This document shows positions 3,085 through 23,530 of a stretch of DNA of 24,071 nucleotides, in pieces. The notes under the pieces are model-generated. The model saw only the letters and a list, made by a program, of their open reading frames with translations, had not been told where the DNA came from and ran no database searches. This DNA is from a virus. The position numbers and the translations under genes were made by a program. The stretch is taken from the IMG/VR virus record IMGVR_UViG_3300021379_001542, positions 1-24,071 of that record; one strand, 5' to 3'. Each line of letters begins with the position of its first letter. The first letter of the stretch is position 1.

Positions 3085-3096
3085 GTTAAATACATT

Positions 3097-3594: not shown

Positions 3595-6500
3595 ATGTCA
3601 TCTACAGATAGGCAAAACCGACTATTATTAGCCGAAGATTGGCAAAAAATTTATCAAAGTTTCAAATATGCAGACTTCAAAAGTTATGATTTTGACAATC
3701 TGCGTAGAACAATGATCAATTACATCAGACAAAATTATCCAGAAGATTTTAACGATTATATTGAAAGTTCTGAATACCTATCTTTGATTGACCTAATTGC
3801 GTTCCTTGGCCAAAATATTAGTTTTAGGGTTGATCTAAATGCTAGAGAAAATTTTATTGAATTAGCAGAGCGCAGAGAAAGTGTTTTAAGACTAGCAAGA
3901 CTTATCAGTTATAATGTCACAAGGAATCAAGCAGCAAACGGATTGCTTAAAATAGACAGTGTGACAACAACAGAAAATATCGTTGATACAACAGGATCCA
4001 ACATTTCCGGCAAGTCTGTAAAATGGAATGATCAAACAAATAGTAATTGGTATGAACAATTTATTAAAATTATGAATGCTGCAATGCTTAATCAAAATCA
4101 GTTTGGCTCTCCTCGTAAGTCTGATATTGTAAACGGTATTCCAACAGAAAAATACAAACTTAACAATTTACAATCTGCATTTCCTATTTTTAGTTTTAAC
4201 AAAGTTATCAATGGTACAAATTTAGATTTTGAAGTTGTTGGCGCAGATATCGACGATGGCGAAATAATTGAAGAAGCACCATTAACAGGAAACAAATTTA
4301 GTTTACTATACAGAGACAACGGACAAGGCGCTGGCAGCTCAAACACCGGATTTTTCTTACATTTTAGACAAGGAACATTACAAAGAGGAGACTTTTCTGT
4401 AAGTTTACCTACACCTAATCAAAATGTAGAAATAGACGCAACAAACGTTAACAACACTGACGTATGGTTATATAGTTTGAATGCACAAGGAGTTGAAGAA
4501 ACACCTTGGACAAAGGTAGATGCTGTAGAAGGCAACAATGTAATTTATAACAGTGTTGCAAAAAATATCAAAGATATTTTCAGTGTTCTTACTAGAACAA
4601 ATGATAGAATTAGTTTAATTTTTAGTGACGGTGTTTTTGGTAATTTACCTAAAGGTGATTTTAGGGCTTACTATCGAACAAGTGCAAATTTAGACTACAC
4701 TATTTTTGCCAATAACATTCAAAATATTAAAGTTAGCATACCTTATACTTCAAATATCGGTCGTAATGAAACTTTGTCTATTGTTTGTAGTTTAAAGCAA
4801 GCAGTCACAAACGGCGCAAGCACAGAATCCACAGACAGTATTCGTGATAATGCACCTAGCACATATTATACACAAAACAGACTTATCACAGGAGAAGACT
4901 ATAACTTAGGTCCATTGGGTGTAAGTCAAGATATTATCAAAGCAAAAGCAATTAATAGAACAAGTAGTGGTATCAACAGGTATTACGATTTAAGAGACAG
5001 CACAGGAAAATACAGCACTACAAATATGTTTGGAACAGATGGTGTTATTTACAAAGATTATCAAACAGAAAAAACAAATTTTAGTTTTATAACAAAAACT
5101 GATATTGAAGGGGTTATTAACAATACTGTTTCTAATTTACTAGAAGATGCAAACTTAAGAAATTATTATTACGATAAATTTACAGATCAAGAATATAGCG
5201 ATTTAAATGTAGTTTGGCAGCAAACAACTAAAGATACAAACAGAAGCACTGGCTTTATTGTTGATAGCAGCAATGCCTTTGATACATCTGCTTTCAAATA
5301 CACAGTTTCTAGTTTTACTGAGGGTGTGTTTAGATACTTAGAACCAGGTGCATTGGTAAAATTTGTAGCACCATCAGGACAGCATTTTATGCCAGATGGC
5401 ACCTTGATGGCAGGAGCAGCAGATCATGCTGGATCCAGTGATTACAAATGGGTAAAAGTAGTTGCTGTGAATAACGGCGGCAATGAACTATCGGAATCGG
5501 GTCTTGGTGGTATTACATTTAATGATATTATTCCTACAGGCGCTGTTTTAGATAGAATTAAACCAAAGTTTGTTAGAGACTTGGTAGATGATGTAAAAAG
5601 TGTTTTAGTTGACCAGATATTTGCTTATAGAACTATTGCGCTGAGATATGATACAAATGCAAGACGTTGGGCAGTTGTGACACAAGAAAATGTAAACACA
5701 ACACAGGAATGGAGCAGTGGTTTAACTGGTGATATCACACAGCAAAATTTAGATAGAAGTTGGCTTGTATTATTTGAAACAAACGGTGTTGAATACACAA
5801 TCACATCTAGAACACTGCGTTATGTTTTTGAAAGTGACAAAGAAGTTAGATTCTTTTATGATTCTACTAAAAAGATTTACGATAGTAGAACAGGCGATAT
5901 TGTAAGAGATAAAATTAGTGTTTTAAATATCAATAAAAATCTAAACAGTACAGGTCAATTAACACCTTTTACAGTTGACTATGACTGGGCTGTAAGTGCT
6001 GAATATAGAGATGGCATAGGATATGTAAACAGTAAAAAGGTCGAAGTTGTATTTTTTGATAACGACGACGACGGTGTAGTTGATAATCCGCAAATATTTG
6101 AAGATATTACTGCTAACAACGATTCGTCACAATCAGCATATGTTTTTGTAAAAAAATCTACAAACGATAATGAGTTTTATTATTATGTAGATGCAGACGC
6201 AGAAAATATTAAAGTAGTCACAAGTGAAGTAGAAGCTACGGTCACTACACCAGGTGATCCTATTTTTTATGTTTCTTCTACAAATGTTTTTTATAAAATT
6301 AACAGCACAGCAAGAACACGAGAATTAATTTTTAATTACAAAGGCTATTTAGGTCGAGCAGGTCTTAAATTCCAATATCTACATGCAAGCGACGAAAATA
6401 ACAGAATTGACCCAAGTAGTAGCAATATTATGGATACATATTTGTTAACAAAACAGTATGATACAAGCTATAGACAATATCTAGCTGGAGCAGTTGATTC

Positions 6501-7080
6501 AGAACCGTTGCCGTTAAGTAGCGATCAGTTATTTAGAGCATACGGCGGTGAAATTAACAAAATCAAAAGCATTAGTGATGAAATTGTTTATCATCCGGTT
6601 AAATTTAAAGTATTGTTTGGATCAAAAGCAAACCCAAATTTGCAAGCAACTTTAAAAGTAGTAAAAAATACAGATAGAGTTGTAAATGATCAAGATGTAA
6701 AAAGTAAAATCATTGAAGCAATTGAAGAATTTTTTGCACTAGAAAATTGGAACTTTGGTGAAACATTTTATTGGAGTGAATTGAGTGCATATATTATGAA
6801 GTCTTTAGCACCAGATTTGAATAGTATCGTTTTAGTACCAAACAGTGCAACAGATTCGTTTGGAAGTTTATTTGAAGTCAAGTCTGAAAATGATGAAATT
6901 TTTATAAGCGGTGCAACAGTAGATAATGTTGAAATAATTACAGCAATTACAGCAGAACGTTTAAGAGCCAGTGGCGCAATTGTGACGTCTATTAATGATG
7001 CAAGTCAATCAGTTTCTAGCGCAGCAGAAACAATTGTCACTACTCCTAGTAGTTCTAACAGCGGAGGAAGTACTTACTAA
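3595..7080 (+). CDS. gp6: gp6-like baseplate wedge protein (baseplate J-like), enlarged
   Basis: 1161 residues, against about 660 for T4 gp6. The N-terminal ~120 residues fit the gp6 pattern: SYDFDNLRRTMINYIRQNYP followed by ESSEYLSLIDLIAFLGQNIS and ENFIELAERRESVLRLARLI, a helical segment conserved in wedge proteins. A baseplate-J-like segment occurs near residues 428-455 (LITGEDYNLGPLGVSQDIIKA, with the GEDY turn at 433-436). The C-terminal part (about 1000-1100) has KFKVLFGSKANPNLQ and IEEFFALENWNFGETFYWSE, the usual C-terminal wedge-dimer region. The extra ~500 residues lie mostly between these conserved parts (about 500-990) and include an EF-hand-like loop (residues 822-833, DNDDDGVVDNPQ). 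gp6 dimers link neighbouring wedges around the hub. The start is supported by the late promoter and AAGGA 7 nt upstream. The stop overlaps the next ATG by 1 nt. Confidence 0.88.
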   Translation: MSSTDRQNRLLLAEDWQKIYQSFKYADFKSYDFDNLRRTMINYIRQNYPEDFNDYIESSEYLSLIDLIAFLGQNISFRVDLNARENFIELAERRESVLRLARLISYNVTRNQAANGLLKIDSVTTTENIVDTTGSNISGKSVKWNDQTNSNWYEQFIKIMNAAMLNQNQFGSPRKSDIVNGIPTEKYKLNNLQSAFPIFSFNKVINGTNLDFEVVGADIDDGEIIEEAPLTGNKFSLLYRDNGQGAGSSNTGFFLHFRQGTLQRGDFSVSLPTPNQNVEIDATNVNNTDVWLYSLNAQGVEETPWTKVDAVEGNNVIYNSVAKNIKDIFSVLTRTNDRISLIFSDGVFGNLPKGDFRAYYRTSANLDYTIFANNIQNIKVSIPYTSNIGRNETLSIVCSLKQAVTNGASTESTDSIRDNAPSTYYTQNRLITGEDYNLGPLGVSQDIIKAKAINRTSSGINRYYDLRDSTGKYSTTNMFGTDGVIYKDYQTEKTNFSFITKTDIEGVINNTVSNLLEDANLRNYYYDKFTDQEYSDLNVVWQQTTKDTNRSTGFIVDSSNAFDTSAFKYTVSSFTEGVFRYLEPGALVKFVAPSGQHFMPDGTLMAGAADHAGSSDYKWVKVVAVNNGGNELSESGLGGITFNDIIPTGAVLDRIKPKFVRDLVDDVKSVLVDQIFAYRTIALRYDTNARRWAVVTQENVNTTQEWSSGLTGDITQQNLDRSWLVLFETNGVEYTITSRTLRYVFESDKEVRFFYDSTKKIYDSRTGDIVRDKISVLNINKNLNSTGQLTPFTVDYDWAVSAEYRDGIGYVNSKKVEVVFFDNDDDGVVDNPQIFEDITANNDSSQSAYVFVKKSTNDNEFYYYVDADAENIKVVTSEVEATVTTPGDPIFYVSSTNVFYKINSTARTRELIFNYKGYLGRAGLKFQYLHASDENNRIDPSSSNIMDTYLLTKQYDTSYRQYLAGAVDSEPLPLSSDQLFRAYGGEINKIKSISDEIVYHPVKFKVLFGSKANPNLQATLKVVKNTDRVVNDQDVKSKIIEAIEEFFALENWNFGETFYWSELSAYIMKSLAPDLNSIVLVPNSATDSFGSLFEVKSENDEIFISGATVDNVEIITAITAERLRASGAIVTSINDASQSVSSAAETIVTTPSSSNSGGSTY

Positions 7081-10000
7081 TGGAAAGTATTGATTACCCA
7101 TTGCCAACTGGTGATTCAGACAGATCAGCTAAAAGTTTATTACCTAGATATTTTAGATCAGATACTAACAGTAAATTTATTCAGTCAACTGTTGATGCAA
7201 TGATTTCTGAAGGGGTAATAGAAAAGTTAGATGCATATGTAGGTAGAAGAAATTCTCCTACAACAAAAGTCACAGATACTTTTTTACCTGATGTATCTAC
7301 CGATAGAGAAAACTATCAGTTTGAATCAAGTATTGTAAGTAAAGACGATTTAGGTAATGTAAATTTTTATGCTTCATATACAGATTTATTAGGAGTTATT
7401 AAATCATATAAAGGCAGTGTAAGTAATCACAGTGTTTTAAATTCTCAAACAAGTTATAGTTGGAATCCACATGTGGATTTTGACAAGTTTACTAACTTTA
7501 GAGAATATTATTGGCTACCGCTTGGTCCGATACCTGTTGCAGTAAGTGGTAATCAGCGAGGTATTACTAGTGTATATAATGTTGAACTAGGACAAGATGA
7601 TCAAGTACAGAGTTATATCTTCTCTCCTGATGGAATAACAAAGAATCCAACTTTGAAATTGTACAAAGGACAAACTTACAAATTTGATATTAACACACCA
7701 GGCGAGCCTATTTCTTTTGTCACAAATATTGCATATCAAGACAACGATCCTTTGCTAGAGGTTGATGCAGAAAACATTAGTACCATTTACAACACAAACA
7801 TCAAAAGATACAAACGAAACGAAGACGGTGCATACATTGAGACAGACGATGTATGGATTGAAAATGGTCGTATCGAATTTACTCCAGATGATTCAGTTCC
7901 AGCACTGTTATATTATGCAAGTAAAAATAATGCAAATATGAATGGATTGCTTAATTTTTATAACATAAACGAAAATTCGCAAATCGATGTTGAAGATGAA
8001 ATCATAGGCAAAAAATCTTATTCATCGCCGATTGGCGGTAATTTATCCAACGGACAGCGCATTTATTTTGTAGGTGACGTGACTCCAGAAAAGTATGCAA
8101 CAGGAAACTATTTTGTTGAAGGTGTTGGTTCATCTATTAGATTAATACCAGAAACTGAATTAGAAATTCCAGTGCCTTTTTCAACAGTTAAAAATGTTCC
8201 ATTTGATGGCGAAGAATTTGGATTTGACGAGTATCCTTATGAAGACGCCGCTGCATTTGTGGCACAAAAAGATTATATCACAATTAACAGAGGTAGTCCA
8301 GATAAAAATCCATGGTCACGATATAACAGGTGGTTCCATAGAGATGTTATTGTAGAAAGTTATAACCAAGCAGGATTGCCTGTAGAAATAGACGAAGAAG
8401 CTAGAGCCAAACGCCCAATCATTGAATATACATCTGGTTTAAAATTGTATAACCATGGTGCTGTTGCAAAAGAAAATGTTGATCTAGTTGATACGTTTAC
8501 AACTGATGTTTTCAGCACAATTGAAGGCAAAGGCGGATATATCATTGATGGTGTTGAAGTCACAGATGGCATGAGATTATTGTTCACAGCTGACAAAGAC
8601 ATACTTGTTGCAGGAAAAATTTATAAAGTAAAATTTATTAATTTTGGTACAGGTGCAACCAAAAATAGACAAATTACCTTGGTTGAAGAATTGGATACTA
8701 ATCCAAACGAAGGCGATACTGTTTTAATTACTTTAGGTGATGTTAATGCTGGAAAAATGTTCCATTATGAAAACAACAAATGGAATGCCGCACAAGAAAA
8801 GACATCTGTAAATCAACAACCTCATTTTGATTTGTTTGATTCAAATGCGTACAGCTATGGCGATAGCAAACAGTATGAAGGTACTAGTTTTACCGGTACA
8901 AAGTTATTTTCTTATGCACAAGGTAGCGGTACAAACGATGTAGAACTTGGATTTCCATTAAAATACGAAAGTATTAACAATTTTGGAGACATTGTTTTTG
9001 ATTTTAATTACCACACTGATAAATTTACCTATCAAGACAGTGTTCAAAATATTGTAGAAAAAAATACTTCAAGCGGTTTCTTTAAAATCTTTAATCAAGA
9101 CGGCAGTTATAAATGGAAAAGCGTTTGGGAACAAACATATTTTAAATCAAGACAACCTGTTATTAGACAATATAATGGACAATTAAATAATTTTCCTGTA
9201 GATGTTTTTGACAACAGTCATTTACTTGATGATCTAGTAGTTAGAGTTTTTGTTAATAACAAAAAGAAGATCGAAGGTGTTGATTATACATTAGATAATA
9301 CAGCAAACTACAAACAGGTAAGATTTTTTAACAACCTAGACAGCGAAAGCATTGTTGTTTTAAAATGCTATAGTTCAGCAAATAAAAATATTAATGGATA
9401 TTATGAAATTCCAAAAAACTTGGAAAGCAATCCGCAAAATGAAAATATTACAACATTCACACTCGGCGAAGTAAACAAACATGTAAACAGTATTGTTGAA
9501 AACTATCATCCAGTAGCACAAGGTAGCATTCCCGGAAATACAAATCTAAGAGATTTAGAAAACATTGCTCAGTACGGAACGCAGTTTATGAAACACAGCG
9601 GGCCTGTAAATCTTGCAGCATACCATTTAGTTGATAAAAATGCGAACATAATTAAATCTATTCAATTTGCTATGAAAGAATACAGTAGATTTAAAAATAG
9701 TTTTTTGTATCAAGCAAACCAAACCGGTTTTCATGGAGATGTCAAAAAGCATGTTGACTTGATAATGAACACTCTTAACAAAGATAAAACGTCAAGCATG
9801 CCGTTTTTTGCAACTGATATGGTTCCAATGAATGCAACCACAGAAACAGTGCATGAGATTGAATACAATGAAACAGCATATTTGCCTACAAGTTTTACAA
9901 ATTATGATTTGCAAACACTCAGCAACAAAGCAGTTTTAGTTTATGTTGATGACGAACAAAAATATCAAGGTGTTGATTATGATTTTGAAAACGGATTTAT

Positions 10001-13000
10001 AAAATACTATAATCCAACAGTAGGACAAGACATAGTTGTATACGAATATGAAAATACAAATGGATGTTATGTTCCTCCTACACCAACTAAATTGGGTTTA
10101 TATCCTTTATACAAGCCAGAGTTCCAGACTATTACTGGTGCTACTGGCAAAGTAAATGTTATCGTAGGACATGATGGTAGTTATACTACAAGATTTGATG
10201 ACTATAGAGATGAGTTATTGTTAGATCTTGAAAAAAGAATATACAACAATATTAAAACATCATATAACGCTGAATACTTAGACATACACAATTTTATTGG
10301 AGGGTTCAATAGAAACACAGGTGTAAGTAGAGAAACAATCGATGGACTAATACTAGAAGATTTTAGTTCATGGTTAAGCACAGCTGGAAATCCAAATTAC
10401 ACTGAAAACACAAATTGGAGCGGCGAAAATAGTTTTACATTTAACTATAGAAACATGTCAGATACAAATGGCAAAAGATTGCCAGGTGGGTGGCGTGCAA
10501 TCTTTAAACAGTTCTATGACACAGATCGTCCACATACTCATCCTTGGGAAATGCTAGGGTTTAGTATCGAACCTTCCTGGTGGCAAGATGTTTATGGTCC
10601 TGCGCCATATACTCTAAGCAATACAGTGCTTTGGCAAGATTTACGTGACGGTTTTGTAAAAGAACCTGGAAAATCTGTAAAGACTTTAGAAAAGTATAAA
10701 CGTCCAAATCTACTATCTATTATTCCTACCGACGACAATGGAAATTTACGTTCGCCTTTAGATAGCGGAATTGCACAAGGATTTTATCTACCTTCTACAA
10801 GTGAGCCGTTTGTTTATGGAGATCAAGGGCCAACTGAAAGTGCATTTAGAAATAGTAGTGATTATAGATTTGCTATACTAAAGGCTTGGATTGTCAGTAA
10901 GCCATGTGAAGTTTTTGGATTAGGTTTCGATAGAAGTAGAATTATTAAAGATATGGCAGGCAATTTTGTTTACAGCGAAACTGGTCAAGCTATCACTACA
11001 AAGGATTTAATTTTTCCAACAATAACAGGCGAAGATTCAAAACAACACCTAACTGCCGGTTTGGTAAATTATATATCAAATTATGTAAAATGGGCAGTTT
11101 CATCTAGCTATGATGCTTATAAAGAAGATCTACAAAAATTAGATAATCAGTTGAGTATCAAACTAGCTGGCTTTGCTGAAAAAAATAAATTAAAATTATT
11201 ACTTGATAGTAGAAGTCCTTTAAATAAAACCAGTGTATTTGTTCCAGAAGAAAACTATCAAATTTTCTTAAACACTTCGTCGGTGCAAGAAGTTGCAACA
11301 CTTAGTGGTATTTTGATTACTGTAAGTGAAAGTGGATACATTGTACAGGGCTATGATAGTCAAAATCCGTCGTTTACAATTTACCCATACATAGAAACAC
11401 AAAGTGATGCTGCTGTTAATGTTGGTGGAATAAGTGAAAAGTTTTTAAACTGGAGCGAATCTAATACATACACAATTGGTACAGTAGTCAAATACAACAA
11501 TGAATTTTACAGAGCAAAAGTTTCTCATTTAAGTTCTAATGAATTCGAAAATCAAAACTTTACTAAATTAGCAGAGCTTCCTGTTCAAGGAGGTAAAACC
11601 GGAATTATTAGAAGAAGATTTGACAAAACTCCTATAAGTGTTCCTTATGGACAAATTTACAAAACTGAACAAGATGTTGTAGATTTCCTTTTAGGATACG
11701 AAGCATACCTAAAAGATCAAGGTTGGAACTTTGAAAACATCAATCCTGAAAGTGGGCAAGTGGAAGATATGCTTCTGCTACTAAAAGAATTTTTGTTCTT
11801 TACAACACAAAACTGGGATAATGATACAGTATTAGCAATCAGTCCTGCTGCTAATAAAGTCATATTTTCTAAAAAGAATTTCACTATTGACAATGTGTAT
11901 GATAATTTTTATGATGTAGCTATACTGGACGGCAATGGCAATGCAATAGATAGCAGTCTTACAAATATTTTCAGAGATAAAGATACAAGATTTACAATTA
12001 ATCCAATTGGCACACCAGAAGGTATATACTTGATTAAATTACCTTTGGTTCAAAAAGAGCACGTTGTACTAATTGACAATCAAACAGTGTTTTCTGATAC
12101 TATTTTTGATAAAGCAGCAGGATTTAGACAAGAACGTATTAAGTTAGTAGGATACAGAACAGACAATTGGTCTGGTAGTTTGAGTATCCCAGGATTCTTT
12201 TACGATGAAGCCAAAATTGTTGATTGGCAAGAAAACACTGATTATCGTATAGGTGATGTGGTAAAATACAAAGAATTTTATTATAGTGCATTTGGTAATC
12301 ACAGCTCTAAGCAAACATTTGACAATACAAAATGGCGTAGACTAAGTGAAAAACCTGTTTCAGAAATATACCCAAACTGGGATTACAAAGTTAATCAGTT
12401 TGCAGATTTTTATGACTTAGACACTGATAATTTTGATACTGAACAACAACGTTTAGCACAACATTTAATAGGTTATCAAAAAAGACAATATTTGGAAAAC
12501 ATTATCAACGACAGTGTAAGTCAGTATAAGTTTTATCAAGGATTTATACAAGAAAAAGGTACAAATAATGCTATCACTAAATTGTTTGATGCTTTAGGTT
12601 CAGCTAACAAAGACAGTGTAGAACTCTATGAAGAATGGGCAATTAGAGCTGGACAGTACGGATCGATTGATAATATTCAAGAAATTGAATACAAAATTGA
12701 TGAAAGCAAATACAGAATTGAACCACAGTTGTTTGAACTTAACAACAACATTACAATTGGCAGAACTGACCTAGTTTATGAAATTGCAAAAAATCAAGTT
12801 TTTAAATCGCCAGAAGAGTATGATCATACATTAACCAGTGTTGTATCTAATACAGATACTTATACAAAAAATTCAGGATATGTAAGATCAGAAGATGTAG
12901 AATATATTGTGACATCAAAAGATTCTATTGTAAACATAGACATTGACAATTTAGAAATTGGCAAACATATTTGGGTCACTACTGATAAACAATCTTGGAC

Positions 13001-16000
13001 AGTATTGAAGCACAGTCAAAGTGATTTAGAAATACTAGGCTTTACAAATTTAACACTTCCGTCTAGTAATTCTGGAGTAAAAATAAATTGTGACAGACAA
13101 GTTGAAGATATTGCTGTTGGCGATATTGTTGGAATATTTTCAAGTATTCCAAATTTCAAAGGATTTTACAAAGTCACTGATGTATTAGGCAGTGATATTA
13201 CATTTGATTTAGGATCAAGCGAAATTGAAATTAATTTTGAAGATCCTGATGATAGCTTTTCAGCAGTTGGCGGCGCAAGTTTAAGCAGATTTGTAGAAAG
13301 AAGATTTGCTGACTTTGAAACGCTAAATTTGAATATCCAAGATATACAAAAAGATGCAGCCGACAGACTTTGGGTGGACGATAACGGACAAGGTATTTTC
13401 AGTGTATATGAAAATAATAGTGTTATTTCTCTACAACAAGAATATGCAAATTTAGATTCACAACTTACCCGTGTAGCAGAAAGTTATGATGTTAACTTTG
13501 GAAATACAACATTTGTCAAAGGTGACAGCACAGACACATCAGCCACACGAGTGGGTAAAGTATCTTTACTAACTAGGAATGCAGAAAGTTTTCAATTTTC
13601 GGCAGGAGCATTTTTTGAGCCAGGAGACGAAGCTGACATAAATTCTGGATACGGTTCGAGTGTAGCAATATCACCGGATAGTAAATGGATAGTAGTCGGT
13701 GCACCATTAGCAGATAATTTTATATCCCAATTCAAAGGCACATATGATCCTACAGAAGCATACGACCAAAAAGACATAGTTGTTGATAGAGGAACCTTGT
13801 GGAGAGCAAAAAAGGCTGTAAGCAATTGGCATGATAGCTATAGCGACAGTAGTACTATTTCAGATAGCGACAGCAACGATTGGGAAGCAGTCTATAGAAT
13901 TGAACACACAGGTCTTGGAACACCGTCTGGACTTACAAATCAAGGTATTGTACACATTTATGAGTTTGACGATTCTACAAGAGAATACATTTTACACACA
14001 GTTATGTGTAGTCCAGATCCAAATGCAGAAGAACAATTTGGACACCAAGTCGAGTTAAGAAAAACCAATAATGGTACACACCAATTGTATGTAAGTGCTC
14101 CTGGTATAGATATTGGTCGTGTTTACTTCTTTGAATTTGATGAAGAATGGAAATGGACTAGAAATAGAAATTATAAAGGTGTTTTTGATGTTAATGAAAA
14201 ATACAGAGAAAATGACATAGTATTTTATCGCGGCGCTTTGTATCAAGCACTGGTTGAAAGAATTCCTTTGACTACTCCTGTGACTGATAAACTGCCTACT
14301 GATACAAATAGCTGGATTGCAGTACAAGATATAGAACACACTGGATATATTCCAAATAGATATCAAGAACTAGATGGCGATCTTGATACAGGAGAATCAA
14401 ACTTTGGTATCAAATTTGATGTAAACGATCAAGGCGATAAAATTGTTGTTGAGTCTGAGGTAAGCGGTGTTAGAACCCTTAGTGTTTATAACAAGCCAGC
14501 AAACAGATGGAAATATATTCAAGAAATACAAGCAGATACCACAAAAAGAGAAAGCTGGGGTGTAGACTTTGCAATAAATGACGACGGCGATCGTATTGCT
14601 GTTGCAGCACCATACAATGATGATATATCAAATGATGCTGGCACAGTATACGTTTACACACAACAATCTAGCGATTTGTACACGCTAACTCAAAATGTAA
14701 GAAGTCCGTACACAGATAAAAATGAAGCATTTGGTAGTGCAGTTGATTTCAGTGGAAATAAACTTGCAATTTGTGGAAAAAACAGCGACCTTATTGAAGT
14801 CACAGGTTTTGATAATTATCAACTAAAACTAGACAACGGCAATACAGAAATATCAAGAACAATAAAAGATACAGGTAGAATTGTTGTATTCCAACTTATT
14901 AACAACACTTACGTTTACGGTGAGGATATAGAATATAAGAGAAATACATCAAATCACATTCTTGATGATTTCAAATTTAATCAAAATCATTTGTATCTAA
15001 ATATGCCAACTATTACTCCTCTTACAGCAGATAATCCTGCTACAGATAATTCTAAATATGTTAACAGCACACTACAGGGTTTGTTAGCTGACTTTAGCTT
15101 TATTAAAGGAAAAGATAGCTGGACTGTTTTAACAAGTCAACAATCTAAACCAAAGATAGACGAATTACAACAAGTATTTTTGTATAGTGATGATAAAAAA
15201 GATATTATTCAACGTTTGGATGTTATTGATCCAAGACAAGGAAAAATTGCAGGTCCAGCAGAGCAAGAAATTACATTTAAAACTTGGTATGATCCAGCAG
15301 TGTATTCATTTAGCACAGGCGAACAGGATGTTGTAGTTGACGCAAATTCTAACTGGACAGACAAATATGTTGGAAAACTGTGGTGGGATATTAGTCAAGC
15401 AAGTTGGTTTGATCCATATCAAGGTAATAGCAATTATAGAGCAGGTGTGTTCCATAAATTGCTGCCTAATGCACAAATACAAGTTTGCGAATGGGTAGCA
15501 TCTGATTTACTTCCAAGCGAATGGGATGAATTAGCTGGAACAGGAGAAGGCTATTCAAGAGGTGTGACAGGCACAACATTATACGGTAGTGAGGTGTTTA
15601 GTAGCAAGCAAGTATATGATACTGTAAGAAAAACATTTATAACAAAATATTTTTATTGGGTAAGAAATACTCAAATTATTCCTAACGTACCTGGTCGTGT
15701 CTTAAGTTGTGAATCTGTCACTAATTTGATTACTGACCCTGCTTCAACTGGATACAGATTTATTAGTTTACTAGAAAATAATAAATTTGCAATGTACAAC
15801 ATAGCAAGTTTAATCGAAGGTCAAAACACAATCTTACACTTTAGAAAAGAAAAAGATGTTGACCTAAACGTTCCTGTACATTATGAATATAACTTGCTAA
15901 CTGAAGGATTGGATGTTTCTATGCCAAGCAAAGACATAGAACAAAAATGGATTGATAGTTTAATTGGTTATGACAACGTAGGCAATCCAGTTCCTGATGA

Positions 16001-19000
16001 AAATCTACAAGTTTCTAAAAAGTACGGTTTGTTAAATATTCCAAGGCAAAGTATGTTTGTTAACAGAATAGAAGCCGTAAAACAATTTGTTGATAGAGTA
16101 AATTCTGTATTTTTACAAAACATAATAGTTGATAACTATAACATTAGTAAGTTGTTGTTGGTTGATCCTGCTCCTTTGTTAACAGCAGGTAAACACGATG
16201 TAGCAGTTGATACTGTAAATGATTTACAATTTGTTGGAACTGCAAAAAAGACACAAGCTGTACTGACACCTGTTATTGTTGACGGAAAAATAACTGATGT
16301 AATTATCACAAATCCAGGCAATGGATATAAGGTTGCTCCTGAAATTGAATTTGATGATGTCACAGGTAAAAATGCTGAATTAAAAGCAACAATAAACAGC
16401 AATGGACAAATTACCAGTGTTCAAGTAAAAGAACAAGGTTTTGACTATTCTTCTAACACAATTTTAAAAGTTAGAGAGTTTAGTGTTCTAGTGAACGCAG
16501 ATGAAACAATTGGCGGACGTTGGAGCATATATGTTTACAACTCAGCTTCTAGAGAATGGAACAGAACAGATAACCAAAGTTTTGATACTACAAAATACTG
16601 GAATTATGCTGATTATTATGCATCTGGTTATTCAGTAAACACAATTATTAATCAAACAATAGAATCCAGTTATGAATTATTTGGATTAGACAATAACATA
16701 GGTGACATTGTTAAAATTAAAAATATTGGAACAGGCGGTTGGCTCCTGTTAGAAAAAACAAATGATCAAGACACTGAAGACTATACAATTAATTATAAAA
16801 CTGTAGGTAGGCAAAACGGTACAATTCAACTGTCAAGTTTAATTTACAATTACTCAACAGAAACAACCGGTTATGATGCAGGTGTGTATGACATAGCATT
16901 TTACGACAGAGAGCCAGTCAATGAATTAAGAAATATAGTCAATGCTATAAAAACTGATATTTTTGTTGGTGAATTGGCTGTAGAATATAACAAACTATTC
17001 TTTGCAAGTGTAAGATATGCATTATCTGAACAAGAAAATGTTGATTGGGTATTCAAATCAAGTTTCTTAAGAGCAAAACACAACGTTGGAGAACTTGAGC
17101 AAAAAGTTGCATATCAAAATGATAACCTAGAAAATTATCAAGATTATATCAACGAAGTTAAACCATATAAAACAAGTGTTAGAGAATACATAAGTGCATA
17201 CGAAAAAATTGAACCAACTAATAGTTTGATTTCTGACTTTGATTTACCACCTAGTTATATTGGAGGAAAAATTACTCCTAGTGTAGCTAAATTTTCAAAC
17301 AATGAAGTAAGCGATTTATGGCAAAAATACTTTACATATCCGTACAAAAATTGGGTAGATAACAACACTTACGAAATAGTCAGTATCGAAGTCTTAGACG
17401 GAGGCAGCGGATTTAATGATACTCCAAATGTGACTATCAGCGGAGACAGCGGAGCCACTGCAAGAGCATATGTTGCAAAAGGTAAAGTAAAATCTATTGA
17501 AATACTTAAAAAAGGCAACAGAGTATTATCTGCTCCTACAGTCTCAGTCAGTGGTAATCAAGACCCTGACGGTGATCCAGTAAAAGCAAGTGTGATTATT
17601 GGTAATCCTTTGGTAAGAAGCACACATATGACTGTAAAGTTTGATAGAGTTAGCGGTAAGCAATATTTTGAAACTATTGATCAAACAGAAAACTTCTTAG
17701 GAACAGGTGCTAAACAAAAGTTTACTTTACTATGGCCAATGAATGTAAAAACAGATACATTCAGTGTCACAGTAAATGGTGTTGAAATGTTAAAAAGCGA
17801 TTATCAAGTTGGCAATGAACTTGATACTACAAAAGGTTATGATAGATATTTTGGATATATTAATTTTATAGAAGATCCTGCAATTGACGCTGTTATAGTC
17901 GTAAATTACAAAAAAGCAACCAGTTTGCTTAATGCTGCTGATAGAGTATTGTATGAATACAATCCTACTACAGGTATGCCTGGCAAAGAATTAAGCCAAG
18001 TAATGCAAGGAGTAGAATACGAAGGTGCATTATACGATAGTTTTGACTTTGGCAATGAACAAGGGTTTGGTGCCGGCGGCTTTAGTGATTTGCCATGGGA
18101 TACATTTGATAATACATTTAGTGATGAAGTAATCAAACTAGATGGTAGCACGTCTACTATCACCCTTTCAAAAGCATTAGAAAATGGTGTAAATTACAAC
18201 ATATATCTAAATGGTGTAAGGCTAGACGATCCTGCATATGATGGCAGCACTGCTACAGCCAACAAAAATGCTGTAATGGCTACTATCGTAGGTGACGGTG
18301 AGCAAACAGAAATAGATATACAAGGTATATTCACTACAACAGACGGTGACGAAGTTATCATTAGAAAAGAAGAAAGCGACGGATCTTTAGCTCCAGTAAG
18401 CACAAACTTTGATACAAGTTTATCAGGTGGCGCACTTGACAAGACTACTGCTACTGGTATACCAAGTGGAGAAATTGTTGTAGATGGTGACGGATTCTTT
18501 ACTGAAACAAACAGTAAAGGACCCGAAGAACTTGTGCCTGGAACAGTCACAGACACACTAGACTTACAAGTTTACACAAGGCCTAATAATGGACAAGCAA
18601 ATATTGCTGTTGCTAATTATGTCTATGATGGTTCAACAAATGAATTTGAGTTTCCTGAAAAACCATTTGGAGAAACAAATGTTGTTGTAATGGTTAATCA
18701 AAAAGTTCTAAGAGAAGATTTATTTTCAACAGACTTTGATTTAAATGTAGTGTTTATTGATAGCGATCAAAACATTGATGCAGGTGATAGTGTGACTGTA
18801 ATGACATTTGGTTCTAATGGCAACAATTTAATTGATGCTAAAACAATACAACTTAATTCATATGATTTTGCAAATCAACCACAAGAAGAAAATTGGAGAT
18901 TTGTGACAGCCGCAGATTTTAGCAGTGATGCTAGTGCAATTGTTGTTCTTAATGGTCGAATTGCAATCGAAGGCACTGATTACTTCTTGAATATAAGCGA

Positions 19001-20834
19001 TAGTACCACAGAAGCAGCAAACAAAATTGCCATAGAATTTCCAGGAGGTAGTATTAGACTCGACGAAGACAATATAATACAATATGCTGTATATGATACA
19101 AATCTTGTAAGTTATAGTCAAATATATCAAGATATATCGTGGAATCAAACACTAGGAAATTATTGGAACTTTATAGATACTCCAACACCTATCAATGTTA
19201 AACCTTTAGGTCATAACTTAATTGTGTTTGGTGATGATGAAATACTAGATCCGGGTTATAGTATAAGATATACTACAACGTCTGATAGAGTATATGATTT
19301 AGATAGTTGGGCATTTGCAGACCTAACACAGATTAACAGCAGAGATATTTTGGTTTATGCTGACGATGTTAGAGTTGATAGACAGTTTTGGTCTTGGGAT
19401 CAAACAAGTGCTAGAATTACTATTTTGTCAAACACAGTTGCTCCAGCAGGAACAAAACTAGATATCTATGTTATTAATAATGCTGATTATTACTTTATTG
19501 ATACACAAATAGAATTTACAGAGTTAGACGGTAGTACCACTATAAACATGGAATCTTTGGTCACAGTTGGACAACCTCTAAAATTAGTAAGCACAGCAAC
19601 TTCAACTATTTTTAATCCAGTTGTTAAATCGGTATCAAATAATGTAGTTGTAGTGCAAGGTATGGCCAGACAAATTAGAGATGAATTTGTTGCTGATGAA
19701 GATTTCTGGGTCACAAACGATTCTACACAAATGAAAATTGCAAACTTAGAATTTGTAGATAGTGATAGTATCAGTATTGATCCAGAAAAATACAACGGTA
19801 TATTTACAACTTACAGAGTAATGCACTTTAGTAATCACGATGTCAACAAGTTTAGAAGATACAGTTATGATGTTCTCACTGATACAGTTGTTAATGAGTT
19901 TACTCCTGAATATACAAGACGTAATTTGCTTACAAGTGGTATTATTGAACTTGATAGTCAAGCAGCTGGAGCTCAATATGTGTGGGTGGTAAAAAATAAA
20001 AAATTACTACGTCCTTTAATTGACTACGAAGTAATGGAAGAACTTGATGCAGTAAGACTAAATGAAATTCCTGCTGCTAATGACAAAATACAAGTTTTAC
20101 ACTGGGCTAATGCAGTATCAGGTAAACGTTTTGGTTATAGAATATTTAGAGATATGCTTGGCAGAACACACTATAAGCGTCTAAGTCAAGAAAACAGTTA
20201 TGTTTTAGCAGCAAACCTACAACCATATGACAATACTCTTGTGCTTGATGATACAACAGGCATACAGCAACCAAGTACAACAAAAAATATACCAGGTATA
20301 CTTTGGATTGATGGTGAACGCATTGAATACTTTGCAATCCAAGGAAACACATTGTCTCAGTTGCGTAGAGGAACCTTAGGCACAGGTGTTAAGAGTTTGC
20401 ACAAAGCAGGCGATAGAGCATTTGGTCAAGGACCAGGAGAAACAATTGATTACCAAGACACATACGATGTATATAGAGATTTTGCAGATGGGTCAAGTCA
20501 AATTGTAGATCTTGGATTTACATTTGATAACATAAACGAAATTGAAGTGTTTGTTGGTGGCAGAAAGTTAAGTAAAGTTGATGTTGATGTTTACAATAAC
20601 ACAATAGCACAAGACAGTACAGAAGGTGATCAAGTTAGAGCACAAGAGTTTACAGTAGTAGATGTATCAGGAGAAAAGCGTATAAACTTTACAACAACTC
20701 CTGCTGTAAACACAGAAATAAGAGTAGTGAAAAGAACCGGAAAAAGATGGATTCAACCAAACGAAACCCTTAGAACCAGCTCTTCACCAATAGCAAAATT
20801 TATTCGCGGAGCAACAATTGAGCTACCTAAATAA
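7080..20834 (+). CDS. Giant multidomain baseplate/adhesion protein (4584 aa) in the gp7 position
   Basis: One uninterrupted 4584-codon frame (roughly 500 kDa). The ATG overlaps the gp6 stop and GGAGG lies at 7063-7067. The N-terminus (LLPRYFRSDTNSKFIQSTVD, about 20-39; YSWNPHVDFDKFTNFREYYW, about 125-144) resembles very large virion proteins I recall from marine T4-like phages; this is from memory, not a search. Modules seen in order: VNG/DY-type beta repeats (about 717-758, 950-992); CBM5/12-like modules (about 1455-1503, 1713-1760); a beta-propeller with FG-GAP motifs (about 2095-2650) holding two more CBM5/12-like modules (2218-2278, 2364-2422); GxGY repeats (about 3071-3135, 3430-3512); eight further VNG/DY repeats (about 3560-4530); and a DGERIEYFAI...LRRGTLGTG segment (4411-4435). 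No membrane segments or signal peptide. The position after gp6 is that of T4 gp7, the wedge initiator, but I cannot show homology to gp7. Likely a peripheral baseplate and host-surface-binding scaffold (inference). Confidence 0.8.
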   Translation: MESIDYPLPTGDSDRSAKSLLPRYFRSDTNSKFIQSTVDAMISEGVIEKLDAYVGRRNSPTTKVTDTFLPDVSTDRENYQFESSIVSKDDLGNVNFYASYTDLLGVIKSYKGSVSNHSVLNSQTSYSWNPHVDFDKFTNFREYYWLPLGPIPVAVSGNQRGITSVYNVELGQDDQVQSYIFSPDGITKNPTLKLYKGQTYKFDINTPGEPISFVTNIAYQDNDPLLEVDAENISTIYNTNIKRYKRNEDGAYIETDDVWIENGRIEFTPDDSVPALLYYASKNNANMNGLLNFYNINENSQIDVEDEIIGKKSYSSPIGGNLSNGQRIYFVGDVTPEKYATGNYFVEGVGSSIRLIPETELEIPVPFSTVKNVPFDGEEFGFDEYPYEDAAAFVAQKDYITINRGSPDKNPWSRYNRWFHRDVIVESYNQAGLPVEIDEEARAKRPIIEYTSGLKLYNHGAVAKENVDLVDTFTTDVFSTIEGKGGYIIDGVEVTDGMRLLFTADKDILVAGKIYKVKFINFGTGATKNRQITLVEELDTNPNEGDTVLITLGDVNAGKMFHYENNKWNAAQEKTSVNQQPHFDLFDSNAYSYGDSKQYEGTSFTGTKLFSYAQGSGTNDVELGFPLKYESINNFGDIVFDFNYHTDKFTYQDSVQNIVEKNTSSGFFKIFNQDGSYKWKSVWEQTYFKSRQPVIRQYNGQLNNFPVDVFDNSHLLDDLVVRVFVNNKKKIEGVDYTLDNTANYKQVRFFNNLDSESIVVLKCYSSANKNINGYYEIPKNLESNPQNENITTFTLGEVNKHVNSIVENYHPVAQGSIPGNTNLRDLENIAQYGTQFMKHSGPVNLAAYHLVDKNANIIKSIQFAMKEYSRFKNSFLYQANQTGFHGDVKKHVDLIMNTLNKDKTSSMPFFATDMVPMNATTETVHEIEYNETAYLPTSFTNYDLQTLSNKAVLVYVDDEQKYQGVDYDFENGFIKYYNPTVGQDIVVYEYENTNGCYVPPTPTKLGLYPLYKPEFQTITGATGKVNVIVGHDGSYTTRFDDYRDELLLDLEKRIYNNIKTSYNAEYLDIHNFIGGFNRNTGVSRETIDGLILEDFSSWLSTAGNPNYTENTNWSGENSFTFNYRNMSDTNGKRLPGGWRAIFKQFYDTDRPHTHPWEMLGFSIEPSWWQDVYGPAPYTLSNTVLWQDLRDGFVKEPGKSVKTLEKYKRPNLLSIIPTDDNGNLRSPLDSGIAQGFYLPSTSEPFVYGDQGPTESAFRNSSDYRFAILKAWIVSKPCEVFGLGFDRSRIIKDMAGNFVYSETGQAITTKDLIFPTITGEDSKQHLTAGLVNYISNYVKWAVSSSYDAYKEDLQKLDNQLSIKLAGFAEKNKLKLLLDSRSPLNKTSVFVPEENYQIFLNTSSVQEVATLSGILITVSESGYIVQGYDSQNPSFTIYPYIETQSDAAVNVGGISEKFLNWSESNTYTIGTVVKYNNEFYRAKVSHLSSNEFENQNFTKLAELPVQGGKTGIIRRRFDKTPISVPYGQIYKTEQDVVDFLLGYEAYLKDQGWNFENINPESGQVEDMLLLLKEFLFFTTQNWDNDTVLAISPAANKVIFSKKNFTIDNVYDNFYDVAILDGNGNAIDSSLTNIFRDKDTRFTINPIGTPEGIYLIKLPLVQKEHVVLIDNQTVFSDTIFDKAAGFRQERIKLVGYRTDNWSGSLSIPGFFYDEAKIVDWQENTDYRIGDVVKYKEFYYSAFGNHSSKQTFDNTKWRRLSEKPVSEIYPNWDYKVNQFADFYDLDTDNFDTEQQRLAQHLIGYQKRQYLENIINDSVSQYKFYQGFIQEKGTNNAITKLFDALGSANKDSVELYEEWAIRAGQYGSIDNIQEIEYKIDESKYRIEPQLFELNNNITIGRTDLVYEIAKNQVFKSPEEYDHTLTSVVSNTDTYTKNSGYVRSEDVEYIVTSKDSIVNIDIDNLEIGKHIWVTTDKQSWTVLKHSQSDLEILGFTNLTLPSSNSGVKINCDRQVEDIAVGDIVGIFSSIPNFKGFYKVTDVLGSDITFDLGSSEIEINFEDPDDSFSAVGGASLSRFVERRFADFETLNLNIQDIQKDAADRLWVDDNGQGIFSVYENNSVISLQQEYANLDSQLTRVAESYDVNFGNTTFVKGDSTDTSATRVGKVSLLTRNAESFQFSAGAFFEPGDEADINSGYGSSVAISPDSKWIVVGAPLADNFISQFKGTYDPTEAYDQKDIVVDRGTLWRAKKAVSNWHDSYSDSSTISDSDSNDWEAVYRIEHTGLGTPSGLTNQGIVHIYEFDDSTREYILHTVMCSPDPNAEEQFGHQVELRKTNNGTHQLYVSAPGIDIGRVYFFEFDEEWKWTRNRNYKGVFDVNEKYRENDIVFYRGALYQALVERIPLTTPVTDKLPTDTNSWIAVQDIEHTGYIPNRYQELDGDLDTGESNFGIKFDVNDQGDKIVVESEVSGVRTLSVYNKPANRWKYIQEIQADTTKRESWGVDFAINDDGDRIAVAAPYNDDISNDAGTVYVYTQQSSDLYTLTQNVRSPYTDKNEAFGSAVDFSGNKLAICGKNSDLIEVTGFDNYQLKLDNGNTEISRTIKDTGRIVVFQLINNTYVYGEDIEYKRNTSNHILDDFKFNQNHLYLNMPTITPLTADNPATDNSKYVNSTLQGLLADFSFIKGKDSWTVLTSQQSKPKIDELQQVFLYSDDKKDIIQRLDVIDPRQGKIAGPAEQEITFKTWYDPAVYSFSTGEQDVVVDANSNWTDKYVGKLWWDISQASWFDPYQGNSNYRAGVFHKLLPNAQIQVCEWVASDLLPSEWDELAGTGEGYSRGVTGTTLYGSEVFSSKQVYDTVRKTFITKYFYWVRNTQIIPNVPGRVLSCESVTNLITDPASTGYRFISLLENNKFAMYNIASLIEGQNTILHFRKEKDVDLNVPVHYEYNLLTEGLDVSMPSKDIEQKWIDSLIGYDNVGNPVPDENLQVSKKYGLLNIPRQSMFVNRIEAVKQFVDRVNSVFLQNIIVDNYNISKLLLVDPAPLLTAGKHDVAVDTVNDLQFVGTAKKTQAVLTPVIVDGKITDVIITNPGNGYKVAPEIEFDDVTGKNAELKATINSNGQITSVQVKEQGFDYSSNTILKVREFSVLVNADETIGGRWSIYVYNSASREWNRTDNQSFDTTKYWNYADYYASGYSVNTIINQTIESSYELFGLDNNIGDIVKIKNIGTGGWLLLEKTNDQDTEDYTINYKTVGRQNGTIQLSSLIYNYSTETTGYDAGVYDIAFYDREPVNELRNIVNAIKTDIFVGELAVEYNKLFFASVRYALSEQENVDWVFKSSFLRAKHNVGELEQKVAYQNDNLENYQDYINEVKPYKTSVREYISAYEKIEPTNSLISDFDLPPSYIGGKITPSVAKFSNNEVSDLWQKYFTYPYKNWVDNNTYEIVSIEVLDGGSGFNDTPNVTISGDSGATARAYVAKGKVKSIEILKKGNRVLSAPTVSVSGNQDPDGDPVKASVIIGNPLVRSTHMTVKFDRVSGKQYFETIDQTENFLGTGAKQKFTLLWPMNVKTDTFSVTVNGVEMLKSDYQVGNELDTTKGYDRYFGYINFIEDPAIDAVIVVNYKKATSLLNAADRVLYEYNPTTGMPGKELSQVMQGVEYEGALYDSFDFGNEQGFGAGGFSDLPWDTFDNTFSDEVIKLDGSTSTITLSKALENGVNYNIYLNGVRLDDPAYDGSTATANKNAVMATIVGDGEQTEIDIQGIFTTTDGDEVIIRKEESDGSLAPVSTNFDTSLSGGALDKTTATGIPSGEIVVDGDGFFTETNSKGPEELVPGTVTDTLDLQVYTRPNNGQANIAVANYVYDGSTNEFEFPEKPFGETNVVVMVNQKVLREDLFSTDFDLNVVFIDSDQNIDAGDSVTVMTFGSNGNNLIDAKTIQLNSYDFANQPQEENWRFVTAADFSSDASAIVVLNGRIAIEGTDYFLNISDSTTEAANKIAIEFPGGSIRLDEDNIIQYAVYDTNLVSYSQIYQDISWNQTLGNYWNFIDTPTPINVKPLGHNLIVFGDDEILDPGYSIRYTTTSDRVYDLDSWAFADLTQINSRDILVYADDVRVDRQFWSWDQTSARITILSNTVAPAGTKLDIYVINNADYYFIDTQIEFTELDGSTTINMESLVTVGQPLKLVSTATSTIFNPVVKSVSNNVVVVQGMARQIRDEFVADEDFWVTNDSTQMKIANLEFVDSDSISIDPEKYNGIFTTYRVMHFSNHDVNKFRRYSYDVLTDTVVNEFTPEYTRRNLLTSGIIELDSQAAGAQYVWVVKNKKLLRPLIDYEVMEELDAVRLNEIPAANDKIQVLHWANAVSGKRFGYRIFRDMLGRTHYKRLSQENSYVLAANLQPYDNTLVLDDTTGIQQPSTTKNIPGILWIDGERIEYFAIQGNTLSQLRRGTLGTGVKSLHKAGDRAFGQGPGETIDYQDTYDVYRDFADGSSQIVDLGFTFDNINEIEVFVGGRKLSKVDVDVYNNTIAQDSTEGDQVRAQEFTVVDVSGEKRINFTTTPAVNTEIRVVKRTGKRWIQPNETLRTSSSPIAKFIRGATIELPK
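11442..11588 (+). other. CBM5/12-like module 1 of the giant protein
   Basis: Residues about 1455-1503. Pattern W-x(4)-TYTIGTVVKYNNEFYRA followed by an FTKLAEL strand. This is the 'W...Y..GD.V.Y.G..Y.A' pattern of carbohydrate-binding family 5/12 (ChtBD3-type) modules, about 50 residues long. In bacteria such modules bind chitin or related glycans; on a phage baseplate they would suit contact with host surface polysaccharide (inference). Confidence 0.6.
12216..12359 (+). other. CBM5/12-like module 2 of the giant protein
   Basis: Residues about 1713-1760. Pattern IVDWQENTDYRIGDVVKYKE, then FYYSAFGNHSS and KWRRLSEKP. It has the same order of Trp, Tyr, Gly-Asp-Val-Val and Tyr residues as module 1, indicating a diverged internal duplicate. 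Confidence 0.6.
13731..13913 (+). other. CBM5/12-like module 3, inserted within a propeller blade
   Basis: Residues about 2218-2278. Pattern GTYDPTEAYDQKDIVVDRGT, then LWRAKK, a Ser/Asp-rich loop (DSYSDSSTISDSDSND) and WEAVYRIEHTG. It interrupts an FG-GAP blade between its VVGAPLADN strand and its GIVHIYEFDD strand. The 'IEHTG' ending is shared with module 4. Confidence 0.55.
14169..14345 (+). other. CBM5/12-like module 4, inserted between propeller blades
   Basis: Residues about 2364-2422. Pattern YKGVFDVNEKYRENDIVFYR, then GALYQALVE and SWIAVQDIEHTG. It is the closest relative of module 3, sharing the GxxD/YxxxDIV core and the W-x-AV-x(2)-IEHTG ending. It follows the GRVYFFEFDEEWKW strand and precedes the next FG blade. 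Confidence 0.55.
16290..17615 (+). repeat. GxGY-type beta repeats in the giant protein (two clusters)
   Basis: Two separated clusters share a pattern 'ItdV.I...G.GY...P.v.......a.A.....G.I.sV.V...G': residues about 3071-3135 (ITDVIITNPGNGYKVAPEIE and ITSVQVKEQGFDYSS) and about 3430-3512 (IVSIEVLDGGSGFNDTPNVT and VKSIEILKKGNRVLSAPTVS). Each cluster has two units of about 35-40 residues. The nucleotide range spans both clusters and the unrelated sequence between them. Similar repeats are common in large phage structural and adhesin-like proteins. Confidence 0.55.
17750..20740 (+). repeat. Tandem degenerate 'VNG...DY' beta modules at the C-terminus of the giant protein
   Basis: Eight diverged units follow the pattern 'v.VxVNgxxLxxxxDYxv......i.f...p..gd.I.V..'. 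The recognisable cores are FSVTVNGVEMLKSDY (about 3560), YNIYLNGVRLDDPAY (about 3706), VVVMVNQKVLREDLF (about 3867), IVVLNGRIAIEGTDY (about 3953), LIVFGDDEILDPGYS (about 4046), ILVYADDVRVDRQFW (about 4090), YVWVVKNKKLLRPLIDY (about 4300) and IEVFVGGRKLSKVDV (about 4488). Two more copies sit in the N-terminal part (about 717 and 951). Copies are diverged at both protein and DNA level, so this is an ancient module array and not a recent tandem repeat. Confidence 0.6.
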
Positions 20835-21466: not shown

Positions 21467-23530
21467 ATGGCAGACTATACCATAAACTTTACAGATTTAA
21501 TTAACAAAGGTTCTCTTACAGTTGAAGAAAATGGACTAAATTCTACAGATACAAGTTTAAAATTAGTAGGACAGAATCTGTCTGGTTATGGTGCTTATAT
21601 CAACGAAAACTTTTTGCATATTTTAGAAAATTTTGCAAATACTACTGCACCTAGTAGTCCAGTAGAAGGACAACTTTGGTACGATACAACTACAGGTGTA
21701 GATCAATTAAAAGTATACGATGGTGCGGCATGGGTAGCAGCAGGCGGTATTAAAAAAGCAGCTTCGCAGCCAGAAGCAAGTGCAAGTATACTTGGAGATA
21801 TTTGGGTAGATACAGCAAATTTACAAGCATATATCTATAGTGGAAGTGGTTGGGTTTTAATTGGACCAGACTACAGTGAGTCTACTGCTACAGGCGCAAA
21901 AATAGAAACACTTGTTGGCACAAGCACACTACTTGGCACTGATGCAAATCACACAGTATTAATTAATTATGTAAACAATAATATTATTGCAGTTTACAGC
22001 TATGTTGAATTTACACCAAAAGTTAAAGTCACTGGATTTCCTACAGGTTATGTAATGAAACCTGGTGTTAATATTCCAACAGAAGCTATATTTTCTGGAG
22101 CAAAAGCAAAATATTATGGAACCAGTGAAAAAGCAGAAGCGTTAGTAGATGCAAGTGGAAATAACAGCATTGTCTACGGAGATGTTGCAACAAAGGATGT
22201 GACAAATAGATTTACAAAAGAACAAAGGATTGCAAGCAATGCAGGACTTACTATTGGTGAAAATGGAATCTTAACAGCAAGTGTCACAGGATCGTCAGTG
22301 ACTATTAGAAATAAAGCCACAGACGGATCAATTAATTTTAACACAAATAACAGTGGAGCAAATCAAACCTCTTTGTATATTGCATCTGATGGAAAACATG
22401 GTATTTTGAATACTTCACCAGAAGAAGCATTAGATGTCACTGGAAATATAAAAGCATCAAAAATAATTTCTACAAGTACCTTGAACAGTACTAATACAAC
22501 AGATGGTGCAATTAACACAGCTGGTGGAATTGGTATTGCAAAAGATATCAATGTTGGCGGTGATGCTTATTTTAACCAAAACGATACAAATAATACAAGC
22601 TCAATTTATGCTGAAAATATACAACCTTATACAACTTTAGCAAATAGTATTGGTACACCTAATTTAAAATATGCTCATGTATATTCAAATACTTTCCACG
22701 GAAATTTAGAAGGAAATGTCACAGGTAATGTAAGCGGTAGTGCGCAAACAGCAGGTAAACTTGCTAGTCCTACAACTTTCCAATTCAATAGCGCAGGTGA
22801 TGTGACTGCAACAGGTAGTGTCACATTTGACGGTCAAGTTGGCGGCACAACTAAAGAATGGACATTGAATATTGATGCAAATTTTCTTACAAATCAAACT
22901 CCAGTGTCGGTATCAACAGCAGGAACAGATGAATTCCTAGTTTATAACTCAGAAGGTTTGCGTAAAATGACGCAGGCACAAATTGTTAGTACAATACCAG
23001 TATTTCAAATTGCAATGATAATGCCATACGCAGGAACTGTTGCACCAACTGGGTGGGAGTTATGTCACGGACAAGAACTTGCACGAGGCGGCGATTATGA
23101 GCCGTTATATGCTATTATAGGCGATCGATATGGAACACCTAGTACACCAGACTTTTTTGTGCTACCTGATTTTAGAGGAAGATTTTTACTTGGACACTTG
23201 GGTGCAGCAACAAGCGGAAACAGAGTGTTAAACGACACAGCAGCTAATACAGTTGGTTTAACTGGCGGCTCTGAATCTCATATTCTTACCCAAGAACAAT
23301 TACCAGATCACACGCACAGTATGCAAGGCGACAACGGCGAACAATATTATGGAGTCACAAATGTCACAGGTGGCACAGATACTGGTGCAAGTTCTCAAAA
23401 TATTTCAGGAACGACAACAGGCACAGGAATTGATAGAACAGGATCAATGAATGACATACAAAGTAATCCTTATTATCATACCAGTCCGTATACAACAGTT
23501 GAGTTTATTATCTACACAGGAGGGTCTTAA
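21467..23530 (+). CDS. Tail fibre protein with C-terminal phage tail collar domain
   Basis: 687 residues; strong GAGGGG (21456-21461) 5 nt before the ATG. The N-terminal ~140 residues form a module with SLKLVGQNLSGYGAYINENF, LENFA and GQLWYDTTTG (32-77), followed by LKVYDG and GDIWVDTANLQAYIY. It is shared with the next gene and probably anchors the fibre to the baseplate. The middle is fibre-like: an SPEEALDVTGNIKASKI segment (317-333), TAGGIGIAKDINVGGDAYF (351-369) and HGNLEGNVTGNVSGSAQTAG (411-430). The C-terminus has a tail-collar signature: MIMPYAGTVAPTGWELCHGQ (517-536), IGDRYGTPSTPDFFVLPDFR (551-570), then LTQEQLPDHTHSM (607-619) and TTVEFIIYTGGS. It is comparable in role to T4 short-fibre (gp12-type) or other collar-domain fibres, which bind host surface receptors. 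The His-x-His pair in PDHTHSM may be a metal-binding site as in gp12 (inference). Confidence 0.88.
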   Translation: MADYTINFTDLINKGSLTVEENGLNSTDTSLKLVGQNLSGYGAYINENFLHILENFANTTAPSSPVEGQLWYDTTTGVDQLKVYDGAAWVAAGGIKKAASQPEASASILGDIWVDTANLQAYIYSGSGWVLIGPDYSESTATGAKIETLVGTSTLLGTDANHTVLINYVNNNIIAVYSYVEFTPKVKVTGFPTGYVMKPGVNIPTEAIFSGAKAKYYGTSEKAEALVDASGNNSIVYGDVATKDVTNRFTKEQRIASNAGLTIGENGILTASVTGSSVTIRNKATDGSINFNTNNSGANQTSLYIASDGKHGILNTSPEEALDVTGNIKASKIISTSTLNSTNTTDGAINTAGGIGIAKDINVGGDAYFNQNDTNNTSSIYAENIQPYTTLANSIGTPNLKYAHVYSNTFHGNLEGNVTGNVSGSAQTAGKLASPTTFQFNSAGDVTATGSVTFDGQVGGTTKEWTLNIDANFLTNQTPVSVSTAGTDEFLVYNSEGLRKMTQAQIVSTIPVFQIAMIMPYAGTVAPTGWELCHGQELARGGDYEPLYAIIGDRYGTPSTPDFFVLPDFRGRFLLGHLGAATSGNRVLNDTAANTVGLTGGSESHILTQEQLPDHTHSMQGDNGEQYYGVTNVTGGTDTGASSQNISGTTTGTGIDRTGSMNDIQSNPYYHTSPYTTVEFIIYTGGS

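Follow-up and report, generated by a model that had tools for sequence, protein, structure and literature searches.

Propellers of the FG-GAP or integrin-like type are already known in phages as the products of separate genes. The "hemagglutinin" of the Agrobacterium jumbo phage Atu_ph07 is an integrin-like propeller forming a separate protein of about 390 amino acids (aa), as is its relative in Sinorhizobium phage AP-J-162, gp213, which was modelled as resembling human integrin 3VI3 (PMC11242549). For phage CBB, propeller proteins of the Kelch type have been reported, including a virion protein (PMC5259590). Phage nt-1 carries an "FG-GAP repeat protein" annotated as a separate gene, and UFOVP1367_22 (A0A6J5S3H5), from the tail module of an uncultured Caudovirales phage, matches FG-GAP_2 at E 3.8e-26. 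FG-GAP_2 blades are also found in a giant protein of the jumbo phage Phosso, XYS97267. Among cellular proteins, the integrin alpha chains (alphaM, alphaX, alpha4, and alphaIIb) combine seven blades with FG and GAP-type strand motifs and, in the case of the alphaI domain, have an extra domain inserted among the propeller blades.

Here, we analyzed a stretch of 24,071 nucleotides (the window, IMG/VR record IMGVR_UViG_3300021379_001542) from an uncultured jumbo-type phage, in which such a propeller lies inside a giant tail protein. The Atu_ph07 hemagglutinin and UFOVP1367_22 both match the window propeller in fold, but the latter is a separate 473-aa protein of a 36-kb phage and is not contained within a baseplate giant, while Atu_ph07 also has a homologue of the giant protein, without detectable propeller. 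Phosso XYS97267 is encoded by another gene at another locus, and no blades could be detected in the protein of Phosso that is homologous to the window giant. Compared with integrin alpha chains, its best matches in the PDB in both fold and profile comparisons, the phage propeller has no calcium loops, shares about 10 to 12% identity, carries CBM5/12-like inserts, and sits inside a phage virion protein. In the open-access literature, we found no report of an FG-GAP propeller in a gp6-adjacent giant protein; its location inside that giant, the shared slot that it occupies, and its universality within a large uncultured clade are new. As a side observation, XYS97267 (L099; Sinorhizobium phage Phosso, 57900-68978) holds 19 FG-GAP_2 stretches together with Laminin_G_3 (LamG) domains and is annotated as hypothetical only.

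Results

The propeller segment (13365-15029) is in frame within a single open reading frame (ORF) at 7080..20834 (+ strand; 4,584 aa), the backbone of which matches the virion structural protein profile phrog_10938 along its length at 1051 bits. Homologues of this giant protein are present in cultured jumbo phages, e.g., PA5oct, Atu_ph07, and 121Q, and the PA5oct homologue, gp355, which itself has no propeller, is flagged ESI-MS/MS in its record. All on the + strand as well, a gp25-like baseplate wedge protein (3097..3537; PF04965, E 2.4e-7) and a gp6-like baseplate wedge protein (3595..7080; phrog_10646, E 7.8e-288; phrog_219, baseplate wedge subunit) are encoded upstream, and a tail collar domain protein (21467..23530; PF07484, E 1.1e-14) is encoded downstream, resulting in the order gp25, gp6, giant, 202-aa protein, and tail collar protein. 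This gene order and the mass spectrometry flag of the PA5oct homologue argue only for a virion and tail role of the giant protein. Judged from its sequence and that of its neighbors, the giant appears to be encoded in a T4-like baseplate cluster. The sequence-only reading had placed the propeller within a phage baseplate protein, and this holds insofar as the carrier is a virion protein in such a cluster, by phrog_10938 and by gp25/gp6 synteny. In T4, gp7 is likewise encoded directly after gp6, a likeness of synteny only: hhalign against a single T4 gp7 sequence gave a probability of 0.3% or less, and no match was obtained between T4 gp53 or gp5 to gp11 and any part of the giant protein outside the slot.

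Pfam FG-GAP_2 (PF14312) matched the propeller segment at 44.4 bits (E 1.9e-11; curated cut-off, 23) and the whole ORF again above the curated cut-off (E 1.8e-7), with its best match on blade 5, and a PDB search with a five-sequence profile detected integrin alpha-4 (E 5e-4). An AF2 model of residues 2087-2724 based on a 17-sequence alignment, used instead of a single-sequence model that reached a pLDDT of only 33, gave a propeller with a pLDDT of 73.5 and a pTM of 0.76. Its best Foldseek matches in the PDB were integrins alphaM, alphaX, and alpha4 (E from 5e-10, for alphaM), and VIA-align returned Z scores of 23 to 24 over 286 to 363 residues against seven-bladed WD40 propellers and integrin alphaM (23.4 for alphaM alone), the matches to seven-bladed propellers spanning model residues from about 22 to 590. 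With an HMM of the family's blades, five domains were found in the window slot at E<0.01, whereas only 2 of 330 slot sequences gave any domain after shuffling, with a full E of about 1e-3 at best. The predicted structure is a closed seven-bladed FG-GAP_2 propeller at residues ~2126-2687 of the giant protein. Structure prediction and HMM comparison (AF2, Foldseek, VIA, Pfam, and the integrin alpha-4 profile) thus bear out the integrin-type propeller that had been read from the letters alone.

Blades were assigned from the strand order in the AF2 model and from the alignment with relatives. Seven were assigned in place of the five previously counted by eye, because the first and last blades, although clear in L011, L049, and other relatives, have degenerated in the window. 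The slot opens with the N-terminal flank motif LWVDDNGQGxFSVYxNN (13368..13418), conserved in the 33 slots compared. It is followed by blade 1 (13455..13613, residues 2126-2178), which is seen in the AF2 strands and has a canonical FG start in L007, L008, and L011, and by blade 2 (residues 2189-2311), which an insert divides into a first half (YGSSVAISPDSKWIVVGAP; 13644..13715) and a second half (GIVHIYEF...YILHTVM; 13935..14012). Both halves of blade 2, as well as blade 3 (14028..14165, residues 2317-2362; 43.7 bits) and blade 4 (14388..14534, residues 2437-2485; 44.8 bits), are supported by the blade HMM and by AF2 strands. Blade 5 (AINDDGDRIAVAAP...GTVYVY; 14544..14705, residues 2489-2542) is the best stretch for Pfam and the site of the integrin alpha-4 alignment, with a blade HMM score of 63.6 bits. 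Blade 6 (14718..14936, residues 2547-2619), in which the B-C loop is long, rests on AF2 strands and alignment, and the degenerate blade 7 (14952..15140, residues 2625-2687), which ends in SWTVL, rests on AF2 strands and is a clear blade in L007, L011, and L049. Hence, the interval first given for the propeller is in frame but ends too early, as the last blade reaches about 15140. The conserved backbone resumes at the C-terminal flank (QQVFLYSDDKKDIIQRLDVIDPRQGK; 15144..15245), which aligns to all seven cultured relatives. In L054, L056, L066, L068, and similar slots, the flank motif at the slot start reads WVDDNGDGLW and resembles an EF-type acidic loop, outside the blades.

Two of the intervals between blades are not propeller but inserted CBM5/12-like modules. 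Insert 1 (13716..13934, residues 2213-2285) occupies the B-C loop of blade 2, and insert 2 (14166..14387, residues 2363-2436) follows strand C of blade 3 and precedes blade 4. The two are homologous, with 38% mutual identity (E 2e-11); insert 2 matched PF02839 in the segment at 23.5 bits (E 5.8e-5), under the curated cut-off of 26.2, and insert 1 on its own had no Pfam match. In the usual propeller strand order, B-C and D-A loops are on one face, and, if this order holds here, inserts 1 and 2 would probably share that face. Read from the alignment, insert 1 is absent at least in L008, L011, and L049 and insert 2 at least in L008 and L011, and L007 and L036 have a similar module in blade 4 as well. 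Slot length among relatives ranges from 582 to 1888 aa with varying inserts, and CBM_5_12 (PF02839) was detected at E<0.001 in 22 of 47 related slots. Another CBM5/12 module belongs to the backbone (11430..11700, + strand; PF02839, E 4.8e-7), with weaker PF02839 matches in the corresponding part of PA5oct, Atu_ph07, Phosso, and SCTP-2.

The strings DVNDQGD (in blade 4) and INDDGD had been described as calcium-loop-like; both are present, and neither is a calcium-binding loop. The window slot has no DxDxDGxxD motif, and a scan of 33 slots did not find it in any propeller blade. A relaxed form occurs in a few related slots, mostly in the flank motif DDNGDG, which is not part of the blades; in L034, it lies within the insert that follows blade 3. 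The calcium loops of integrins align to short turns without aspartates, the A-B turn being too short for a loop.

The slot was compared with homologues from seven cultured phages (PA5oct, Atu_ph07, Phosso, SCTP-2, 121Q, GAP32, and Vibrio phage 2.275.O), with BLASTP alignments covering residues 1 to about 1900 and about 2690 to 3400 of the window protein. The backbone anchors are separated by 784 aa in the window, versus 195 in GAP32, 196 in 121Q, 257 in 2.275.O, 310 in PA5oct, 498 in SCTP-2, 1514 in Phosso, and 1521 in Atu_ph07. No blades were detected in any of the seven by the family blade HMM, or by Pfam where scanned. In PA5oct, VWIDSINSDNDWAVAVV, the counterpart of the N-terminal flank motif, is 25 aa from the C-terminal flank, a gap that reads as a site without propeller. 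In the cultured relatives, the slot is either short or occupied by other sequence. About 440 aa in the slot of the Salicola phage SCTP-2 (L022, 17832-19150) resemble a LamG-like jelly roll by eye; there was no Pfam match in this slot, and we do not claim that identity. In the slot of Atu_ph07 (L021, 17430-21820), GxGYxxxPxVxxxGxxGxGA repeats abound over ~1,460 aa, and no propeller was detected.

Relatives were at first found with the propeller itself, and a second scan of viral contigs with the backbone alone served for the presence/absence count, which is thereby freed of ascertainment bias. At least 588 backbone relatives were confirmed in environmental viral contigs. Among the best 80 of these, which are the most query-like and speak for the window's clade only, blades were found in all 66 complete slots (full E<=3e-15 each). 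The earlier remark that such a propeller is no standard T4-type part therefore stands for T4 and the seven cultured relatives and fails for the window's own clade, in which it was universal as sampled. Pfam FG-GAP_2 was detected in 39 of 47 backbone-found slots and in 22 of 24 from another set of relatives. No match to the segment was returned by tblastn from 50,697 phage records, and a scan of genome contigs for relatives found none.

In a tree of the backbone that follows the slot, built on propeller-ascertained rows, 27 propeller-bearing rows formed one clade (branch support, 97/94), and slot and backbone distances were correlated (r = 0.93). Mean identity was 27% in the slot versus 41% in the flanks. 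Together, the single clade and this correlation make it most likely that the propeller was acquired a single time and has since been passed on vertically, changing faster than the backbone. Between close relatives, dN/dS was low (0.086 for the slot, window versus L002, similar to several backbone regions), and it gave no sign of positive (diversifying) selection.

Discussion

Our computations show the propeller fold and its slot, the single clade of its carriers, the inserts, and the co-inheritance of slot and backbone. On this basis, we propose a model, to which we give equal measures of belief and doubt, in which the slot-fixed seven-bladed propeller would act as a rigid exposed platform with clade-specific, glycan-touching modules on its loops. 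The giant would be a tail or baseplate protein with a fixed insertion slot, which a single gain would have filled with the FG-GAP_2 propeller in the window's large uncultured clade. The propeller may be exposed on the virion surface, and its loops would bear the clade-specific modules, here two CBM5/12-like ones, which could contact host-surface glycans before or during baseplate rearrangement and in this way take part in adsorption. Exposure and binding are suggested indirectly by the variation of the inserts, by the presence of CBM_5_12 in nearly half of the related slots, and by the lower conservation of the slot than of its flanks. Counting against this platform are the low dN/dS of the slot, without sign of diversifying selection, the CBM match of insert 2 under the Pfam cut-off with none for insert 1 alone, and the PA5oct homologue, detected by mass spectrometry and devoid of propeller. 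Universal presence and vertical inheritance would also suit a purely structural part.

The leading alternative is such a purely architectural role because the propeller is never missing in the sampled clade: it would be a baseplate part packing against other wedge proteins or against repeats of itself, the inserts being decoration. Vertical inheritance and strong purifying selection fit this explanation as well, but cultured relatives manage without a propeller, several blades accommodate inserts of very different size, and the slot has diverged more than its flanks, and we regard this role as rather doubtful. A calcium-dependent integrin-like host-binding head, as proposed in the sequence-only reading, has in its favor that integrin alpha chains are the best PDB matches; with the DxDxDGxxD motif absent from the window and, in the 33 slots scanned, from all propeller blades, and with the integrin loops aligned to turns lacking aspartates, calcium dependence is unsupported and such a head is very improbable. 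A host-binding head as such is plausible. Equally improbable is an enzyme, e.g., a polysaccharide lyase or hydrolase clearing capsule or matrix, since LOR107 (6byt, solved with a tetrasaccharide substrate), although present among the Foldseek matches, ranks under many non-enzymes, and integrins and WD40 scaffolds match better.

Returning to the platform, we suggest more tentatively that the jumbo phages of this large uncultured clade employ an integrin-like propeller, fixed in the giant protein, to present changeable glycan-binding modules on its loops, in parallel to the alphaI domain on the integrin head, and that the slot is a general cargo site, as the same slot is short or otherwise filled in cultured relatives. 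Whole domains at this fixed site of the giant virion protein are present, absent, or different depending on the jumbo-phage lineage, and one lineage has filled it with an integrin-type propeller. Considering the number of backbone relatives in environmental viral contigs, this may represent a widespread, undescribed adsorption device. For phages known from sequence only, the slot is a tangible starting point in the search for host-range determinants.

Other genes of the window merit mention. A hub-like protein with a DUF2345 (VgrG-type) region is encoded at 2-2281; by eye, the C-terminal part of this protein (FRESGLRYNCVNTIGFAGKYQFGG) resembles a lysozyme or a transglycosylase. Between this gene and gp25, a CHAP-domain protein (2281-3084; PF05257, E 1.4e-7) is probably a virion-associated peptidoglycan hydrolase. 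At the other end, the genes at 21467-23530 and 23530-24069, the first of which encodes the tail collar domain, share a similar N terminus (INKGSLTVEENGLN / INKTDGTLLVDLIDG...YGxxxNENFxxILENFA) and look like tandem paralogues.
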